DNA of 49,938 nt from a virus, in IMG/VR virus record IMGVR_UViG_3300031251_000030, positions 1 to 49,938 of that record; one strand, 5' to 3'. Below, one piece after another: positions 22,417-33,355 of this stretch (the first letter of the stretch is position 1; each line of letters starts with the position of its first letter). A program made the translations under genes and the position numbers. The notes under the pieces were generated by a model, which had not been told where the DNA came from, made no database searches, and saw nothing but the letters and a program-made list of their open reading frames with translations.

Positions 22417-22620
22417 ATGACAGACTCTCAAGACTCCTGCACCTGCAAGAACCGCTCGCTCCGCCTGGACGAGGCGATTATGTTTATCCGTCCGAACCTT
22501 ACCGGATTCATCACCGCCAAGGATTGCCCCCTGCACGGGATGCGCGACCTCACAAATTATAGCACGCACGAGCCGACTGTTAACCTTCCTGTCGTCAGGA
22601 CAGTTGACGAATCCCTTTAG
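22417..22620 (+). CDS. Small Cys-rich protein, probable zinc binder
   Basis: 67 residues. CTC near residue 8 and KDCPLHG near residue 36 give possible metal ligands; similar CPxHG ends occur in small phage proteins. No Shine-Dalgarno sequence precedes the ATG, in keeping with a leaderless mRNA from promoter 22381-22409. Function unknown. Confidence 0.55.
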   Translation: MTDSQDSCTCKNRSLRLDEAIMFIRPNLTGFITAKDCPLHGMRDLTNYSTHEPTVNLPVVRTVDESL

Positions 22621-22632
22621 TGGCGGTAGCTT
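22604..22632 (+). promoter_or_regulatory. Promoter for the small recombinase
   Basis: TTGACG (22604-22609), 17-nt spacer, TAGCTT (22627-22632). The start near 22640 gives a leader of about 27 nt with GTGGAGAAA before the ATG at 22667. A small stem TCCTG/CAGGA lies just upstream. Confidence 0.6.
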
Positions 22633-22666
22633 CTTCACGTCAACAAACGGAACGTGGAGAAAAACA

Positions 22667-23257
22667 ATGGCTAACGGTGTTGTGAAGCGCGCCAACGTGC
22701 TCGACGAAGCGGCGATCAACGAAGTTCTTGGCTATATCGACGACCATTCCGCGCAGCCGTTGCGCGACCGCTTGATGCTCATCCTCACATGCCGGCTGGG
22801 TCTGCGCGCCCAGGAAGTGGCGAAGGTCTATGTCGAGGACATCTTGGACGCTCGCGGTCGCCTGAAGGACTCCTTGTTCGTGTCTAAGCGCGGCGCGAAA
22901 TATGGCAAGGAACGCACGCTACCGATGCGCGACGACGTTAAGGTAGCTCTCCAGGCATATCTCAACGAATACAAGCAGATAACCAGCGGGCCGTTGTTCT
23001 TCAACCAATATGGCGAGCCGCTGGAGTCGACCGCCGTGCAGAAGCAGCTCAAGCGCCTCTATGGCTTCGTCGGGTTGCGTGGTTGTTCGTCGCACTCCGG
23101 TCGCCGCACGTTCGGGACGCGCGCCGCACGCGCCGTTACGAAGATGGGCGGGACGCTGAAGGATGTAATGCGCCTGATGGGGCACGCCAGCATTGAGACG
23201 ACCGAGATATATGTCGAATTCACGCCAATTGAGCGTGAATTGGTCGCCATGATCTGA
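22667..23257 (+). CDS. Minimal tyrosine recombinase (catalytic domain only)
   Basis: 196 residues from ATG 22667 with GGAG upstream. The catalytic set is complete: Arg in CRLGLRAQE, Lys in SKRGAKYGKERT, HSGRR (HxxR), LMGHASIETTEIY with His and the nucleophilic Tyr. It lacks the N-terminal core-binding domain (about 100 residues) of usual integrases. Such short recombinases occur in large phages and may resolve genome multimers or invert segments. The real integrase is probably the longer gene at 31323, beside attP. Confidence 0.85.
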   Translation: MANGVVKRANVLDEAAINEVLGYIDDHSAQPLRDRLMLILTCRLGLRAQEVAKVYVEDILDARGRLKDSLFVSKRGAKYGKERTLPMRDDVKVALQAYLNEYKQITSGPLFFNQYGEPLESTAVQKQLKRLYGFVGLRGCSSHSGRRTFGTRAARAVTKMGGTLKDVMRLMGHASIETTEIYVEFTPIERELVAMI

Positions 23258-23571: not shown

Positions 23572-23600
23572 TTGACATGGAGGGGCAGAAAAATTAACAT
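23572..23600 (+). promoter_or_regulatory. Promoter for the primase-helicase gene
   Basis: TTGACA (23572-23577), 17-nt spacer, TAACAT (23595-23600). The start near 23607 lies within the right arm of an inverted repeat. Confidence 0.7.
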
Positions 23601-23610
23601 CTGTCCCTCC
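23579..23610 (+). promoter_or_regulatory. Inverted repeat across the primase promoter (operator candidate)
   Basis: GGAGGGGCAG (23579-23588) and CTGTCCCTCC (23601-23610) pair over 10 bp with one G-T. The arms lie on either side of the -10 box, so a dimeric repressor bound here would block the promoter. In read-through RNA it would be a hairpin. Confidence 0.5.
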
Positions 23611-23625
23611 ACAACCGAGGTCCTC

Positions 23626-26600
23626 ATGTCCCAGCATCTAATTCCCCTGCTCGCCGCCGTGTTCGGTGGAGTGAGCGGCGAACTCCAGTTTACTGCCGAA
23701 AACGACGATCTTACCTCCCGCGATCTGGACGAAATCGAGGCTTTCCTAGCTGGGAAGGGCTGCGAGGCGTTCGTCTCCACCGCGACTTCAGGCGGTAACG
23801 GGGCTGGGCGGGCGTTCTTCTTCAGCAACGAGGACAACCTGTTCGAGTTCGTCGATACCTTTGGCTACCCTAATTTCGTCTTCACTTTCAACGGTAAGTT
23901 GCGCTTCATCCTCTATACCGAGACGTTGGCGCTCGAAGGCCGTTTCGGTTCCGAGACTGACTACTTCCCACTGCCTGGATATGGTGGCTGGGAACTGACA
24001 GCCGCGTCCATCGCCAAGCTGCCGCCAGACGAGCCAGAGCCGGTCGCTGACGAGGCCGAGCAGCCTCCTGTGGACGAACCCACCGCCGAAGCGGAAAGCG
24101 CGTCAGAGGAGCCTTTCCAACTCAACGACGCCATGGTGATCGGCGAGATTCCGCAGAACGTCCTCGACCTATCGCTGACGCTCGGCTGCGGTCGCAACGA
24201 GCAGGACAAGCGCTGGCCAGCGCGCCAGATGACCTGGGCGCAACTGGTCGGCACGCTGTCGAAGCACGCCGTTGGTCCCAAGGAAGGGACCGCCTTCCTG
24301 CAAGGGTCGGCAATCGACAACATGCGCAAGGCGAATGCCATCGACTCCCTATACATCATGGGCCTTGATGTCGACGCTGGCGTGCAATTTCAATGGGCCG
24401 TGGACCGCATCAAGGGGCTTGGCCTGTCGGCGGTGCTCTACACGACGCATAGCCACATGAAGCCAGAGACCTTCGTCCTGGAGTCGAGCTTCGGGCAGTT
24501 CGCGCGCCGCAATAAGCTCGACGCCTTCCCGACCCTGGAGAACATGAGGCGCTTCCTGAAGGAAGAGCGCCATTGGGAGCAGTGGGTTGTCGACACCATA
24601 GAGCTGGACGACGACCCGGGACAGACTGTCCTTGGCAAAGGCTTCGCGCTGAAGCATGCACCGATTCCAAAGTTCCGGATCATCTTCCCGCTCGACACTC
24701 CATTCGTGATCGCCAAGCAGCGCATGTCGCAGGCTGACGCCATCGATCTTTGGAAGTCGAAAATTGTAGGGCTCTCGAAGGTCATCGGGCTGCCTATTGA
24801 TGAAGCAGCGCTGGACCCATCAAGATTATTTTTTATGCCACGACACGGTAACGGCAGGCCATTCCATGTGACGGTGACCGGCGGCTACGCACTGGACTTC
24901 GATGGAATTCCCGAGGGACGCACGAAGCGTGGCGAGGCCAAGCTTGATGACAACGTGTTCTCGGAAGCGGCGAAGGACCTTGGCGCGACCGGCATGTCGA
25001 TGAACCTTGGCGACTTCAATCTCAAGCGCTGGGCGCGCGAGGTCGCGGTGGATTTCGACATCGCCAAGCTGTTCCGCGAAGCTTCGCCGAGCCATGTCCG
25101 CGCCGACGACAACACGTCGAAACTGGCGGTCGACTGCCCGTTCGATGGGTTCCATTCGAACGCCGGTGATCCCGACGACCGAGGGGCGTTTGTCCAGAGC
25201 CCATCGGCGGAGTTTGGCGTAAACAGTTTCGTCTTTGCGTGCTCGCATAATTCGTGCAAGGGTCGCGACCGCCTGGAGATGATCGCCGAGGCGGCGGAGC
25301 AGGGATGGTTCACGCGTGACGATCTCGCCGACGAGCGCTTCCTGGTGTTCCGCGCCGGTGAGCAGAAGCAGTTCTTCGACACCGACAAGATGGTCGCCGA
25401 CGCCTCGGAGTTCCTGGCTACGCTCAGTCCTAAAAGGCCAGTAGAGGCAACGAAGGAAATCACGCGGCTCTTCACCGAGCTGATGAAAGCCGGTGCGAAC
25501 AGCACCCAGATCAACAGCCTCGCCGATGATGTCAAGACCCGCAAGTTGCTTGCCGCCTCGCGCATCAAAGATGTTTTGAAGCTTGCCAAGACTGCGTCGA
25601 CCGAAAAGATGTCGGACGACGAGCGCAAGGACAGCGTTTTCAAGCAGAACAACATCAAGTCGGACGGTGCGAAGGCGCTTATTCTGTTCCCGGAGAACGG
25701 CTATGTGCAACAGCGCGAAGCGGTTATTGATTCGCTCGGAGACATGAACAAAAACTCTCCGACGATGTTCGATTTCGGTCGGCGCAAATACAGTGTCGAG
25801 CGCCAGGAAGAACTTGAAAACGTCGCGGTCACGCCGCTGACGCAGGACCACCTTGCCAATAAACTGAACGCTCCAAACGGACTGTTCTTCTTCCGTCAGA
25901 TCGACGAAAAGATCGTGTCGGTGTCGATCCCGAGCCGGGTCCTCGGCGAGGTGCTGGTCAACGAGCAGTGGCATTGCCCGAAGCTGAAAGGCTTCGCCGA
26001 GCTGCCGTTTTTCAACGCCAAGGGCGAGCTGGTCAGCAAGATCGGATATGATGCGGATTCGGCGATGTATCTCAAGCCGTCCAGCATTGCCGCTGAGTTG
26101 CAGGTCCCGGTCAAACCCACCAGCGAGGAGATCGACGCGGCGAAGGAACTGCTGCTGAACAACGTGTTTTATGACTTCCCGTTCTACGATGGTCCAGATC
26201 ACGAGGAACAGCAGGGTGCCGGCTCGCGCTCGCATTTCGTGGCGATGATGCTGCAACCATTCATCCGCGAGCTGGTCAATGGCCCGACGCCGATCTATCT
26301 CGTCTCGAAGCCGACCGCCGGCACCGGCGGCACGAAGCTGGTCGAGAACGCGCTGTTCATCACGTCAGGCAAGAAGCCCAGCACGAACACGCACAAGACC
26401 AGCGAAGAGGAGCAGCGCAAGGACATCACGTCGCAGTTCATCGCAGCGAAGACGTTCTATTGGATCGACAACATCAAGGGAACGCTGGCGTCGCCTGCTT
26501 ACTGTAACCTTGCGACCGGCGAGGTGTGGGAAGACCGAGTTCTTGGAAAAAGCGAGGCGGCATCGTTCATCAACTTGATGATGTTCATCATCAGCGGCAA

Positions 26601-27225
26601 TAACCCTGGCGGCACCTACGAGGTCATGCGCCGGTGCCTTCCGATTCGTCTCGACGCCAAGGGAGACCCACGCAAGCGCGACGAAAGCGCGTTCAAGCAG
26701 CCGAAGCTGAATGAGTTCGTGCAGGCGCACCACAAGGAGCTGGTCGAGGCCGTCCTGACGATCATCCAGGGTTGGGTGGCGGACGGAATGCCGAAGTTCA
26801 CCGGCAAGCCACTACTGTCGTTCGATTCCTGGTCCGAGGTGACCGGCGGCATCCTGGAGTTCGCTGGAATCCCTGGCTTCCTGTCGAACCTTCACCTGAC
26901 GCAGAAGTATGCCGACGACGAGACGTCTGGTTTCGAGTCGCTATTCCACATCATCGGCACCAGGATGTCCAAGGTCGATCAGCCGTTCACGACGCGCGAG
27001 CTGGCCAACTATTTCCTGGAGAAGGACGAGGAGTTCCCGTCAATCGGCTGCAACTTCACCGACAACGCCCACATGCTCGCCAGCCGCCTCGACCGCGTGC
27101 TGAAGGAAAAGGCCGGCGCGCCTTACGACTTCACCAGCCTGGAAGGTCGCCACATGCAACTGTGCCTGAAGCGTGAGAAGGACGCGGCGACGTCCGCCAC
27201 CAATTATCGACTCGTGGAGATGTGA
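23626..27225 (+). CDS. Fused primase-polymerase and D5-like helicase
   Basis: 1199 residues from ATG 23626 (GAGG upstream). The N-terminal about 190 residues are unknown. An archaeo-eukaryotic primase-like core follows: GLDVD (about 246-250), FRIIFPL, and DPSRLFFMPRHG (about 396). A zinc-ribbon type segment has CPFDGFH (about 503) and FACSHNSC (about 537-545). The C-terminal part is D5/DUF5906-like: P-loop region PTAGTGGTKLVE (about 896), YWIDNIKG as Walker B, SGNNPGG, RRCLPIRLD, and FDSWSEVTGGIL. The usual P-loop Lys is Gly (GTGGT for GTGKT), with a Lys two residues on. Likely synthesises primers and unwinds at the phage fork. Confidence 0.85.
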   Translation: MSQHLIPLLAAVFGGVSGELQFTAENDDLTSRDLDEIEAFLAGKGCEAFVSTATSGGNGAGRAFFFSNEDNLFEFVDTFGYPNFVFTFNGKLRFILYTETLALEGRFGSETDYFPLPGYGGWELTAASIAKLPPDEPEPVADEAEQPPVDEPTAEAESASEEPFQLNDAMVIGEIPQNVLDLSLTLGCGRNEQDKRWPARQMTWAQLVGTLSKHAVGPKEGTAFLQGSAIDNMRKANAIDSLYIMGLDVDAGVQFQWAVDRIKGLGLSAVLYTTHSHMKPETFVLESSFGQFARRNKLDAFPTLENMRRFLKEERHWEQWVVDTIELDDDPGQTVLGKGFALKHAPIPKFRIIFPLDTPFVIAKQRMSQADAIDLWKSKIVGLSKVIGLPIDEAALDPSRLFFMPRHGNGRPFHVTVTGGYALDFDGIPEGRTKRGEAKLDDNVFSEAAKDLGATGMSMNLGDFNLKRWAREVAVDFDIAKLFREASPSHVRADDNTSKLAVDCPFDGFHSNAGDPDDRGAFVQSPSAEFGVNSFVFACSHNSCKGRDRLEMIAEAAEQGWFTRDDLADERFLVFRAGEQKQFFDTDKMVADASEFLATLSPKRPVEATKEITRLFTELMKAGANSTQINSLADDVKTRKLLAASRIKDVLKLAKTASTEKMSDDERKDSVFKQNNIKSDGAKALILFPENGYVQQREAVIDSLGDMNKNSPTMFDFGRRKYSVERQEELENVAVTPLTQDHLANKLNAPNGLFFFRQIDEKIVSVSIPSRVLGEVLVNEQWHCPKLKGFAELPFFNAKGELVSKIGYDADSAMYLKPSSIAAELQVPVKPTSEEIDAAKELLLNNVFYDFPFYDGPDHEEQQGAGSRSHFVAMMLQPFIRELVNGPTPIYLVSKPTAGTGGTKLVENALFITSGKKPSTNTHKTSEEEQRKDITSQFIAAKTFYWIDNIKGTLASPAYCNLATGEVWEDRVLGKSEAASFINLMMFIISGNNPGGTYEVMRRCLPIRLDAKGDPRKRDESAFKQPKLNEFVQAHHKELVEAVLTIIQGWVADGMPKFTGKPLLSFDSWSEVTGGILEFAGIPGFLSNLHLTQKYADDETSGFESLFHIIGTRMSKVDQPFTTRELANYFLEKDEEFPSIGCNFTDNAHMLASRLDRVLKEKAGAPYDFTSLEGRHMQLCLKREKDAATSATNYRLVEM

Positions 27226-27267: not shown

Positions 27268-27343
27268 TGGTCGGGGTGACCGGACTCGAACCGACGATCT
27301 CCTGAACCCAAATCAGGCGGGATACCAACTTCCCTACACCCCG
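27268..27343 (-). tRNA. tRNA-Pro (TGG)
   Basis: 76 nt including an encoded CCA. Acceptor CGGGGTG/CACCCCG, D arm GGGA/TCCC, anticodon loop TTTGGGT (anticodon TGG, reads CCA), T arm with TTCGAGT. All stems pair. It follows the pre-tmRNA terminator by a few bases and precedes terminator 27229-27260. Confidence 0.95.
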
Positions 27344-27344
27344 A

Positions 27345-27375
27345 ATAAAAGGAACCCCGCCGAAGCGAGGTTCCT
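27345..27375 (-). terminator. Terminator between pre-tmRNA and tRNA-Pro
   Basis: Minus strand AGGAACCTCGC, loop TTCG, GCGGGGTTCCT then TTTTATT: 11-bp stem with one mismatch and a T-run that reaches the first tRNA-Pro base. Ends the tmRNA precursor, or is read through to give the tRNA. Confidence 0.75.
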
Positions 27376-27399
27376 CTCTGCTCTTTCTGTTGCTAGGCC

Positions 27400-27545
27400 G
27401 AGCAGGCCCCGGAGATTACGCCGCGAGGCGCATTTCTCCAGCGAAATTGTCATTTGCGACAGTTTCATTTTGCCCGCCGATATGTTGCCGGGCCGCACAA
27501 GTTGCAACTCCCCTTAGCCCCACCTGTCGATCCTATTTCGCCCCC
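27400..27545 (-). ncRNA. ssrA: tmRNA coding piece (permuted two-piece ssrA)
   Basis: 5' end GGGGGCG at 27545-27539, then ATAGGATCGAC in the D-loop position. The tag frame runs 27457-27416 with resume codon GCA preceded by TGTC and encodes ANDNFAGEMRLAA followed by TAA. The tag begins and ends like known degradation tags (ANDN...LAA). GGGGGCG pairs with CGCCTCC of the acceptor piece upstream in the same transcript (one G-U). The order acceptor piece, 120-nt spacer, coding piece is that of permuted alphaproteobacterial ssrA. The 3' boundary (about 27400) is estimated. The RNA rescues stalled ribosomes and tags the products for proteolysis. Confidence 0.92.
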
Positions 27546-27665
27546 ATCAGATGGACACTCAACCGAAGATACGACGCAGACGCCGCCCACGGCCTAGCTG
27601 CAACCAACTCGCAGACCATTGCATTGCAGTGCAGTGCAAGAGGGACTGCTTCGAGAGTGCCCATG
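27546..27665 (-). ncRNA. Intervening segment of pre-tmRNA
   Basis: 120 nt between the CCA of the acceptor piece and the 5' G of the coding piece, expected to be cut out during maturation. It contains direct repeats around GCACTGCACTGCAATGCAATG (27618-27638) and no reading frame of note. Confidence 0.75.
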
Positions 27666-27745
27666 TGGTGGAGGCGGCGGGGTGCTGCCCCCCGCGTCCA
27701 GAATGGTATTGTGGTTTGCTATCGAGACGACAACGCGCGAGACAC
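27666..27745 (-). ncRNA. ssrA: tmRNA acceptor piece
   Basis: Ends CGCCTCC-A-CCA (27676-27666). CGCCTCC pairs with the first seven bases of the coding piece. The T-arm position holds a GCGGGG/CCCCGC stem with loop GGCAGCA, which lacks the usual TTC. GGACGCGGG before it matches the run before the T-loop in other tmRNAs. The 5' end is estimated from the size of about 80 nt known for Caulobacter. Confidence 0.85.
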
Positions 27746-27839
27746 GAGACCACTAGGTAGACCAGTTTCGGGGATCAGCCGGCTTTGTCTGCTTCGTGCC
27801 TGATCAGGGAAGACCCGTGCCTCTCGCGTTGGCGTCTCG
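27723..27839 (-). ncRNA. Leader hairpin B upstream of the tmRNA acceptor piece
   Basis: Arms 27723-27742 and 27822-27839 are complementary (CGAGACG...CAACGCG type) with small bulges. Inside, GATCAG (27773-27778) pairs with CTGATC (27800-27805). Directly abuts hairpin A. No protein reading frame of credible composition crosses it. Confidence 0.6.
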
Positions 27840-27934
27840 GAGGCGGTAACGCAGAGATCAAAGAGCTTATCAGTTTCCTGGTTAGCGGCCTGGACCTGAT
27901 TAAAGGGACCCCTTGATCTCGGCGTTACCGCCTC
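27840..27934 (-). ncRNA. Leader hairpin A: 22-bp stem at the start of the pre-tmRNA
   Basis: Arms 27840-27861 and 27913-27934 pair over 22 positions with one mismatch, enclosing 51 nt with an inner ATCAG/CTGAT stem. It begins about 10 nt after the expected transcription start, so it is the first thing transcribed. Not a known part of tmRNA that I can recognise. Confidence 0.65.
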
Positions 27935-27949
27935 AACAACCATGACCGA

Positions 27950-28210
27950 TTATCTAACACGCACCTTTTTCCGTGTCAACAATCCTGGCGAACTTTTTCT
28001 GCCTCTCATGCGATTTAATTTTCCGATCACCGCATTCGTGGTCAGAAGCACAGGCTGGCGGAATTCCTTGTTGAGGATTTCCACCGCTACCTTCGCCTGG
28101 ATGTCGGAGCTGTCCAGCGCCATCAAGCGCTGTTCAGCCTCCGGAGTCCAAATGAAGTGCTTCCCCGGGTAGTCGTCCGGCCCCGGGATCACGCGAGCGA
28201 CCGTAGCCAT
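27950..28210 (-). CDS. GcrA-like regulator
   Basis: 86 residues. FIWTPEAEQRLMAL and LLTTNAVIGKLNRMRG match the two conserved ends of the GcrA DNA-binding domain (W-x-x-E ... RNAVIGKxxR). GcrA is an alphaproteobacterial sigma70-associated activator sensitive to GANTC methylation by CcrM. A phage copy could redirect host cell-cycle transcription. Only the DNA-binding part is present; the C-terminal sigma-binding region is missing. Its last codons contain the tmRNA promoter. Confidence 0.72.
   Translation of the reverse strand: MATVARVIPGPDDYPGKHFIWTPEAEQRLMALDSSDIQAKVAVEILNKEFRQPVLLTTNAVIGKLNRMRGRKSSPGLLTRKKVRVR
27951..27979 (-). promoter_or_regulatory. Promoter for pre-tmRNA
   Basis: TTGACA (27974-27979), 17-nt spacer, TAGATA (27951-27956), all inside the 3' end of the gcrA-like gene. 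Expected start near 27944. Confidence 0.8.
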
Positions 28211-31301: not shown

Positions 31302-31325
31302 CATGGTCCCGTTATGGTCCCGCTA
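31302..31325 (+). repeat. Integrase arm-type repeat, right
   Basis: Identical to 31084-31107 over 24 bp. Its last three bases form the stop codon of the integrase gene on the other strand. Confidence 0.7.
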
Positions 31326-32489
31326 CGCGTCGGCGGTCTCCCGCAGATAGTTAGGCGAGTGGTGACCATAGACGCGCTCGATCATCGCCACCGTCATGCC
31401 CAGGAAGCCGGCGACCTCCCATGCCGGGCGTCCGCGCTGCATCAACCACGTCGCGCAGGTGTGTCGCAGGACGTGTGGCGTCACCGAGCGGTCGAGGCCG
31501 GCGCGCGCCACGGCGCGGCTGAAAGCCTTGTGGATGCGTTTTTGGCGCGCGTCCTCATGACCAGTAGCCGAAACAACGAACAGGCTATCAGACAGCCGTT
31601 TCCAGCGCGGTAGGTGCCGCGCCAAGCTCTTGGGGATCGGCGTGGGGGTCTGGCGCTTCTTCGTTTGAGCTTTTCCCGACGCGGCGCGAAACATCATCTG
31701 ATTCTCCAGATCGAAGAATCCTCCGGAGAGATGCTGCCGCCAGCCGAGGGCGAGAATGGCGTCGTGACGCGTTCCAGTGCGCAATCCAATTAGGATGAAG
31801 CGACAGATGTGGCGACTGGTCACCTCTGGCGCGCGCCGCCAGATGGTCCATCTCTCGGTCCTGGATGCAAGACTGCTGCACGGCGCGAGGATGAATCCCA
31901 TAGCGCCGAGAAGCAGTCGAGCCGCTTCCGAACGCGTCAGCCATCGGTCGCGGGGAGGTCCGGCTTGCGGCAGCGTGATCGGAATTTCTATGGAGAGCTT
32001 GCGTGACTTCCAAGCGTGGCGCAACGCCGATTGCAGGTCCACCAATTCACGGCGCGCGGTGACGGTTTTGACCGCTCGATCTCGGCGTGGCGGTTCATTA
32101 TGCTTGACGCCGCCGGCATGGGTGCGCCAACGCTCATACGCCTTGGTGGTCGATGGCGTGATCTCTTCGCAGGCCATGTCGCCAAAAAATTCGACGATGC
32201 GCATGGCGCGCTGCGCGGCTTCCTCTGGTTTCTTTTGCGACGGGATGCAATCCTCCGCATACAGGATCATCACCTCGGCGACGGTTAGCGCCGTGGCTTC
32301 CTGCTTGGCGAAATTGGATCGAGTGATGTCCTTGGAAAGATAATCGGTCAGCGCTTGGCGAGCGCCGTCAGCGTCTTCAGCGCCGACGCCCGTGGCGATC
32401 CTGCTGCTGCCGTCTTGGATATACCAGAGGGCTTGCGCGCCCTCCCGCTTGCGGAGTTTGAGGTAGGGGCCTTTTGCAACTCTCGGCAT
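31323..32489 (-). CDS. int: Phage integrase (tyrosine recombinase)
   Basis: 388 residues from ATG 32489. N-terminal arm-binding part (1-60), core-binding helices (65-170), catalytic domain with Arg237 (GLRTGTR), Lys274 or 277, His339 and Arg342 (HVLRHT), and Tyr374 (ERVYGHH). The second His position is LGM, as in related alphaproteobacterial integrases. Lies beside attP and would recombine it with a host tRNA-Gly gene. Overlaps the excisionase-like gene by 142 nt. Confidence 0.92.
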   Translation of the reverse strand: MPRVAKGPYLKLRKREGAQALWYIQDGSSRIATGVGAEDADGARQALTDYLSKDITRSNFAKQEATALTVAEVMILYAEDCIPSQKKPEEAAQRAMRIVEFFGDMACEEITPSTTKAYERWRTHAGGVKHNEPPRRDRAVKTVTARRELVDLQSALRHAWKSRKLSIEIPITLPQAGPPRDRWLTRSEAARLLLGAMGFILAPCSSLASRTERWTIWRRAPEVTSRHICRFILIGLRTGTRHDAILALGWRQHLSGGFFDLENQMMFRAASGKAQTKKRQTPTPIPKSLARHLPRWKRLSDSLFVVSATGHEDARQKRIHKAFSRAVARAGLDRSVTPHVLRHTCATWLMQRGRPAWEVAGFLGMTVAMIERVYGHHSPNYLRETADA

Positions 32490-32692
32490 CGCTCTCTCCA
32501 CGCCTTAATGTCCGCTGGCGTCGTGACAAGCTTCTTGCCGAGTCGTTCGGTGGTCAGTTCCTTGCGCCGCGACGCTTCGAACAGGGTCCGCTCTGACACG
32601 ATACCGCGCAACAGGATACGCGACGCCTCGGCGAGAGTTAACGGCGTGTCGTCGTCGAAGTCAAGATTGCTAGCTGGCTGTGCGGAAGTCAT
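32348..32692 (-). CDS. Excisionase-like helix-turn-helix protein
   Basis: 114 residues. TLAEASRILLRGIVSERTLFEASRR and LVTTPADIKAWRERC form a MerR/Xis-type winged helix-turn-helix (about 15-70). The last about 45 residues are low in complexity and are encoded in the region shared with int. Probably the recombination directionality factor. ATG follows TAGGCATCCGGTC directly, so the mRNA is predicted to be leaderless. Confidence 0.7.
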   Translation of the reverse strand: MTSAQPASNLDFDDDTPLTLAEASRILLRGIVSERTLFEASRRKELTTERLGKKLVTTPADIKAWRERCRELQKAPTSNSASGRARKPSGISKTAAAGSPRASALKTLTALAKR

Positions 32693-33255: not shown

Positions 33256-33270
33256 TCTCTAAATATGAAA

Positions 33271-33341
33271 CTGGAGGGGCGGGGATCGAACCCACGACCG
33301 TCACGGCTCCCGCCGCCGCTCTACCACTGAGCTACCCTCCA
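33271..33341 (-). tRNA. tRNA-like element with unpaired anticodon arm (pseudo-tRNA?)
   Basis: Acceptor TGGAGGG/CCCTCCA, D arm GCTC/GAGC and T arm GTGGG-TTCGATC-CCCGC are normal. The anticodon region (GCGGC GGGAGCC GTGAC) does not pair, has G at position 33, and no CCA is encoded. Either a decayed tRNA or one adapted to another use. No amino acid can be assigned. Confidence 0.6.
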
Positions 33342-33355
33342 GCATTCCTAACCCT

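Follow-up and report, generated by a model that had tools for sequence, protein, structure and literature searches.

A circularly permuted tmRNA gene of the alpha type is encoded in the window, a linear IMG/VR fragment of 49,938 bases that derives from a large phage of alphaproteobacteria. The sequence-only reading had proposed such a gene, and the assignment is confirmed: two covariance models match, the sequence changes preserve the structure, and related phages conserve the gene. The gene lies on the minus strand, which corrects that reading. We estimate at roughly 85% the probability that it specifies a functional RNA: a two-piece molecule that would be processed by the host, charged with alanine and bound by host SmpB, and that would rescue ribosomes and tag proteins for ClpXP.

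Identification of the gene

The Rfam alpha_tmRNA model (RF01849, gathering cut-off 50) matches positions 27738-27385 on the minus strand with 69.7 bits (E 4.5e-17), and the tmRNA_permuted model (RF04321, gathering cut-off 47) matches 27732-27416 on the same strand with 67.9 bits (E 4.8e-11). A search with such models had been suggested as a check; both scores exceed the cut-offs, and a chance match to tmRNA models is excluded. The score is low: in five genomes the host genes reach 190-316 bits, and the tmRNA of Mesorhizobium phage Cp1R7A-A1 has 112 bits. ARAGORN did not detect a tmRNA gene in the window, so routine annotation would overlook it.

The conserved core of the gene, from the P2 strand of the acceptor piece to a 3' motif, occupies 27385-27745 on the minus strand, as judged from RF01849, RF04321 and cofolding of the two pieces. 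The span originally given, 27400-27745, was too short at 27400, because the conserved 3' end is near 27385. Its other limit stands in modified form: the 5' end is placed at or beyond 27745, since the start of the acceptor piece falls within a strong hairpin (27839-27723).

Anatomy and predicted fold

Read 5' to 3' along the minus strand, the locus comprises leader hairpin 1, leader hairpin 2, a P2 strand, the T-arm, the 3' acceptor strand with A-CCA, an intervening segment, the 5' acceptor strand, the core GAAAUAGGAUCGAC, the tag frame, the motif AGCAACAGAA, a terminator hairpin and a tRNA-Pro(UGG) gene. The 3' acceptor half is therefore upstream of the 5' coding half, with 120 nucleotides between the CCA end at 27666 and the mature 5' end at 27545. 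Both of these landmarks had been predicted, and are exact by sequence.

The acceptor piece (27666-27740, minus strand) is delimited by sequence, both Rfam models and the cofold. It contains the P2 strand, the T-arm, the 3' acceptor strand CGCCUCC, a discriminator A and an encoded CCA; its T-arm has a 6-bp stem (GCGGGG/CCCCGC) and a 7-nucleotide loop, GGCAGCA. The intervening segment (27546-27665, minus strand) is 120 nucleotides long, and its ends are predicted to pair as AUGGGCACUC/GAGUGUCCAU in a 10-bp helix beside the acceptor stem, a terminal helix that viral relatives with long segments generally share. The coding piece (27380-27545, minus strand), recognized by sequence and Rfam match, includes the 5' acceptor strand GGGGGCG, the D-like core, the tag frame and the 3' motif. 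The two acceptor strands form a 7-bp stem, GGGGGCG/CGCCUCC-A-CCA, with G3-U70, the discriminator A and CCA.

The tag frame (27416-27457, minus strand) reads GCA AAU GAC ... GCG GCG UAA and encodes ANDNFAGEMRLAA, exactly as first described with its GCA resume codon and stop, and the Rfam alignment places the same frame. With the charged alanine added, the tag is AANDNFAGEMRLAA. A GCN resume codon, an ANDN start, an end of hydrophobic residue and AA, and a stop codon are all present. The conserved 3' motif (27385-27394, minus strand) is aligned in RF01849, and a similar motif occurs in Cp1R7A-A1 and other phages.

When the mature pieces are cofolded with the acceptor piece beginning at 27740, the 7-bp acceptor stem, the T-arm and an extended P2 are obtained, giving the canonical tmRNA shape in which a predicted P2 helix joins the two pieces. 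Cofolding predicts that P2 and the canonical fold are lost if the acceptor piece starts at 27722, so the 27745 boundary is approximately a minimum.

Leader, promoter and terminator

Fold and inverted-repeat analysis reveals two hairpins in the leader, both on the minus strand. Hairpin 1 (27840-27934) has 22-nucleotide arms that are 95% complementary and is directly upstream of hairpin 2 (27723-27839), whose 24-nucleotide arms are 88% complementary. Hairpin 1 follows the possible promoter and precedes the tmRNA, and has no Rfam match. Hairpin 2 has an inverted-repeat score of 20, and none of 60 viral and none of 60 host relatives reaches 18. This comparison rules out a strong leader hairpin as a general trait of the relatives, and indicates that hairpin 2 is peculiar to the window phage. 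From its position in the RF01849 alignment, hairpin 2 is probably an enlarged form of, or a replacement for, the small 5' hairpin of alpha acceptor pieces. Part of its sequence also belongs to the distal P2 strand, with which the hairpin could compete; when the acceptor piece is folded from 27835, the best structure retains hairpin 2 and the proximal P2.

A promoter before the gene and a terminator after it had also been noted. The possible promoter (27949-27979, minus strand) consists of TTGACA (27979-27974) and GATAAT (27954-27949) separated by 19 nucleotides; both elements are present in the sequence, but the putative promoter is weak by consensus, and a consensus scan found none. The probable intrinsic terminator (27344-27375, minus strand) is a long GC-rich hairpin of -22.7 kcal/mol followed by UUUUAUU. 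It is plain in the sequence and fold, although a consensus terminator scan found none.

Phage context

Genes on the contig encode RNR, thymidylate synthase, DNA polymerase, helicases, rIIA, rIIB, ligase and two tyrosine recombinases, and the neighborhood belongs to a large tailed phage. These genes, and a block conserved with Cp1R7A-A1, establish that the tmRNA is within a phage genome and not in a host flank. Just downstream of the tmRNA terminator is the tRNA-Pro(UGG) gene (27268-27343, minus strand; Rfam and ARAGORN). The convergent neighbor (23572-27225, plus strand) encodes a primase-like protein (PHROG 10537/19930) and is preceded by a tyrosine recombinase gene (22604-23257, plus strand); the second recombinase is at 31323-32501. 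A tRNA-like gene at 33270-33342 on the minus strand scores 46 bits with RF00005, and ARAGORN assigns it only a two-base anticodon (gg), possibly reflecting an unusual anticodon loop.

The DNA polymerase is most similar (50%) to that of Cp1R7A-A1, the nearest cultured relative of the window phage; the next matches are in Microcystis phage Mwe-JY26, in Ruegeria, Phaeobacter and Rhodobacter phages, and in the phiCbK group. A megablast search of the window against named phages gave no match. Cp1R7A-A1 (MT188704) carries a permuted tmRNA at 58677-59062 that is not annotated in its record. As in the window, this tmRNA is convergent with a homologous primase-like gene, a recombinase gene precedes the latter (43% identity), and the 3' half of the RNA is similar. 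It differs in its higher score, a compact leader and the tag AANDNHFEARALAA.

The primase-like protein had no match in a single-sequence search of viral contigs, and a four-sequence alignment retrieved eight further IMG/VR relatives. No tmRNA was found near the primase-like gene in any of the eight, with flanks fetched up to 8 kb, so the adjacency of the two genes is seen only with Cp1R7A-A1. The IMG/VR records of six of these relatives were searched whole, and two contain a tmRNA elsewhere.

Structural constraint in viral and host genes

The absence of UUC from the T-loop had been taken as a peculiarity, but the alpha consensus is GGCGGUA and host T-loops likewise lack UUC: of the 110 scored on a 5-bp stem, each reads GGCGGTA or GGCAGTA. 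Two Sphingomonas host genes (L138 and L163) also have the 6-bp form of the T-stem. The first pair of the stem is G-C in the window and C-G in 109 of 110 hosts, and the window stem is a compensatory variant of the host stem.

Covariation was assessed on 40 distinct viral T-arms picked without regard to pairing, because counting genes selected for pairing would be circular. In these arms, with kinship ignored, pair 1 is standard in 97.5% and pair 2 in 95%, compared with about 41% and 40% for shuffled partners, and all four Watson-Crick types occur at these two pairs. On this evidence, the T-stem covaries across the viral relatives. G3-U70 is present in the window and in every gene scored (152/152 viral, 112/112 host). 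CCA is encoded in the window and, at loci fetched by a common core pattern, in all 104 viral genes scored, versus 92 of 112 host genes (p 1e-6).

The intervening segment has a median length of 83.5 nucleotides in viral genes and 33 in host genes. Its terminal helix typically begins 0-1 nucleotide past the CCA and stops 4-5 nucleotides short of GGGG. Among viral genes with segments of at least 60 nucleotides, the longest closing helix averages 10.4 bp, versus 6.7 bp for swapped partners (p 4e-32), and 13 host genes with long segments give the same kind of signal, although weaker. The permuted tmRNA of Sinorhizobium phage Phosso (L249:986-1675), which ARAGORN misses, has an intervening segment of about 400 nucleotides.

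In many viral tmRNAs the resume codon also follows the D-like core at a short distance, namely 27-28 nucleotides (for example, L044, L052, L076 and L080), 37 nucleotides, or 43-46 nucleotides (L014, L028, L039 and L069), whereas hosts usually have 62-67 nucleotides. It is as if the pseudoknot before the tag had been lost.

Proposed function

A single precursor would be transcribed from the minus strand, and host tRNA-processing enzymes would cut apart its acceptor and coding halves, with the intervening segment perhaps held as a helix that extends the acceptor stem. The two pieces would pair through the acceptor stem and P2, and host AlaRS would recognize G3-U70 and add alanine. Once charged, the RNA would bind the SmpB of the host and free ribosomes that have stalled on broken messages in the infected cell; AANDNFAGEMRLAA would be added to the unfinished protein, and the tagged fragment would be destroyed by the host ClpXP pathway. 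A search for SmpB found no gene in the window, which is a fragment of the phage genome, and none in nine complete phages that carry tmRNA; the phage RNA therefore presumably relies on the SmpB, AlaRS and proteases of its host.

That G3-U70, CCA, the resume codon and the LAA tag are all intact suggests trans-translation in its complete form, and ordinary trans-translation during infection is the most likely activity. The phage might benefit because ribosomes stay free when infection yields many broken messages, although hosts already possess tmRNA. There is a precedent for phage growth that depends on ribosome rescue by tmRNA: infection of E. coli by lambda-immP22 falls 10,000-fold when tmRNA or SmpB is lost, chiefly through ribosome rescue, and tagging matters in heterologous settings (PMC2862035).

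Alternatively, the phage tmRNA might mainly occupy host SmpB or the ribosome entry site, and thereby inhibit or counteract host tagging. An RNA consisting only of the tRNA-like domain is reported to inhibit tmRNA in E. coli (PMC4131195, PMC11915505), and a decoy role has been proposed for the tag-less RNA of DS6A, with counteraction suggested by the authors of the Lacusarx study (PMC5648845). A decoy needs no tag frame, however, and the window gene and nearly all viral relatives keep theirs, together with the resume codon, LAA end, G3-U70 and CCA, which makes this role very unlikely.

Tag sequences

The middle of the window tag had been considered unusual, but a variable middle is normal for the family, and the exact motif FAGEMR was found in no other viral contig. 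Viral and host tags were compared only at loci fetched by the core pattern, because fetching by tag biases the RLAA fraction across all viral loci. Among these core-fetched loci, the tag ends in LAA in 85 of 98 viral genes versus 40 of 110 host genes (Fisher p 4e-14), ends in AA in 97 of the 98 viral genes, and has a median length of 14 residues in viral and 12 in host genes.

Tags of the type ANDNxxxEMRLAA, a pattern with exact spacing, occur in at least 119 viral contigs, of which at most a minority have a known host. Among 120 matches listed, 63 are ANDNFAPEMRLAA, and a recognizable tmRNA core is just upstream in 83. The pattern was found in none of 385 alphaproteobacterial and none of 249 Pseudomonadota genomes; the control host tag ANDNYAEARLAA was found in 3 of 58. 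Other predicted viral tags include one of 29 residues, ANDNALSNVTFVDFSAPVTAVNEDFALAA, in three contigs (L066, L101 and L117), one of 31 residues, ANDNVAQPKFMKKRNTFARKVGFTKGMALAA, in one contig (L088), and short non-ANDN tags (ANFNEYALAA and ANYNNFALAA) in some permuted tmRNAs.

This distribution is what might be expected if EMRLAA-type tags sent proteins to another protease or adaptor, or marked phage and host fragments differently. Such retagging for altered proteolysis, which the sequence-only reading had raised, is speculative, and we found no paper on phage tmRNA tags and ClpXP in the open-access literature. SspB and ClpX read the AANDNF and LAA parts of the tag, and the window tag retains both. 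The tag middle varies widely among hosts as well, and the preserved LAA end, more uniform in viral than in host tags, argues for ordinary degradation; retargeting is thus highly improbable. The chance is close to negligible, and the reading already disfavored, that the gene is a decaying or passive host ssrA copy gained at an integration site and without function: tyrosine recombinases are present and tmRNA genes are often targets of genomic islands (PMC11915505), but the gene is whole and not a 3' fragment, is strongly diverged from host genes yet keeps its pairing, tag and CCA, and has the same location in Cp1R7A-A1.

A broader conjecture, in our estimate unlikely, is that the tmRNAs of alphaproteobacterial phages form a phage-maintained lineage marked by a tag family of its own, comprising ANDNxxxEMRLAA and further tags that end in LAA, and that selection favors proteolysis whose outcome differs from that of the host tag or is more uniform. 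If so, the phage would impose during infection a protein-quality-control code of its own. As for why phages carry tmRNA, the near-fixation of LAA in phages together with the absence of EMRLAA from the sampled hosts provides a specific hypothesis to test. Mostly unannotated tmRNAs are present in the phiCbK group and in the nearest cultured relative of the window phage, and because the Caulobacter two-piece tmRNA of the host and the phage are both established laboratory systems, the question is directly testable.

Comparison with known tmRNAs

Two-piece tmRNAs in phages are already known, and the window gene adds another. An earlier catalog based on ARAGORN lists 53, mostly from marine or aquatic samples (PMC9004378), a 2025 database holds 79 bacteriophage tmRNA sequences of all forms (PMC11915505), and a two-piece tmRNA has been reported for Lacusarx, which is likened to the phiCbK group (PMC5648845). 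In the open-access literature, we did not find the phiCbK and Cp1R7A-A1 genes, statistics on phage tags, or the helix that closes the intervening segment.

The phiCbK gene (NC_019405, about 103283-103601; L392:13284-13602) scores 71.4 bits, encodes the tag AANDNDVVAFASAREAIAA and is unannotated; permuted tmRNAs also occur in CcrRogue (88.2 bits) and BL57 (70.7 bits). The phiCbK tmRNA matches 36 records, of which 26 cover at least 80% of it; these are all from Caulobacter phages, some in two records, and their annotation at the locus is nothing in 25 and a hypothetical protein in one. The phiCbK genome paper reported from Rfam analysis no functional RNA except tRNAs (PMC3556154), a result attributable to the models of 2012.

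Further permuted tmRNAs are found in Phaeobacter phage MD18, RcXuper, RcSimone-Hastad, V10, vB_EliS-L02 and Phosso, and are annotated in DSS3_MAL1 and Melnitz. Like the window gene, these and the phiCbK-like genes are phage-encoded and permuted, with a tag frame; unlike it, they have other tags, and several adjoin a GOLLD RNA or a glutamine riboswitch, neither of which was found in the window by Rfam search. A GOLLD RNA is just upstream of the tmRNA in MD18 (L245:614-1081), DSS3_MAL1 (L246:771-1234) and Ruegeria phage V10 (L250:704-1137), with a tRNA inside it in MD18 and DSS3_MAL1. An unannotated GOLLD RNA (RF02032, 165.3 bits, L392:12289-12775) is also encoded by phiCbK.

The RNAs of the Bxz1 group, phage G and DS6A are phage-borne ssrA, as is that of the window, and we take the Bxz1-group and phage G tmRNAs not to be of the alphaproteobacterial permuted type. 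Such genes are described in mycobacteriophage Bxz1 and its relatives, in Bacillus phage G and, without a tag, in DS6A (PMC4131195). The DS6A RNA has no tag frame; that of the window is intact, which sets it apart from a tag-less decoy.

The closest known system is the two-piece tmRNA of alphaproteobacterial hosts (RF01849, RF04321), exemplified by that of Caulobacter (Keiler 2000, as cited in PMC9004378). The window gene shares with it the acceptor half placed first, the acceptor stem, the GAAAUAGGAUCGAC core, the T-loop without UUC, a tag of the form ANDN...AA and the CAACAGAA 3' motif. It differs in its far lower scores, the 6-bp T-stem, an intervening segment much longer than the host median, the enlarged 5' hairpin, the extra leader hairpin and the EMRLAA end of its tag.
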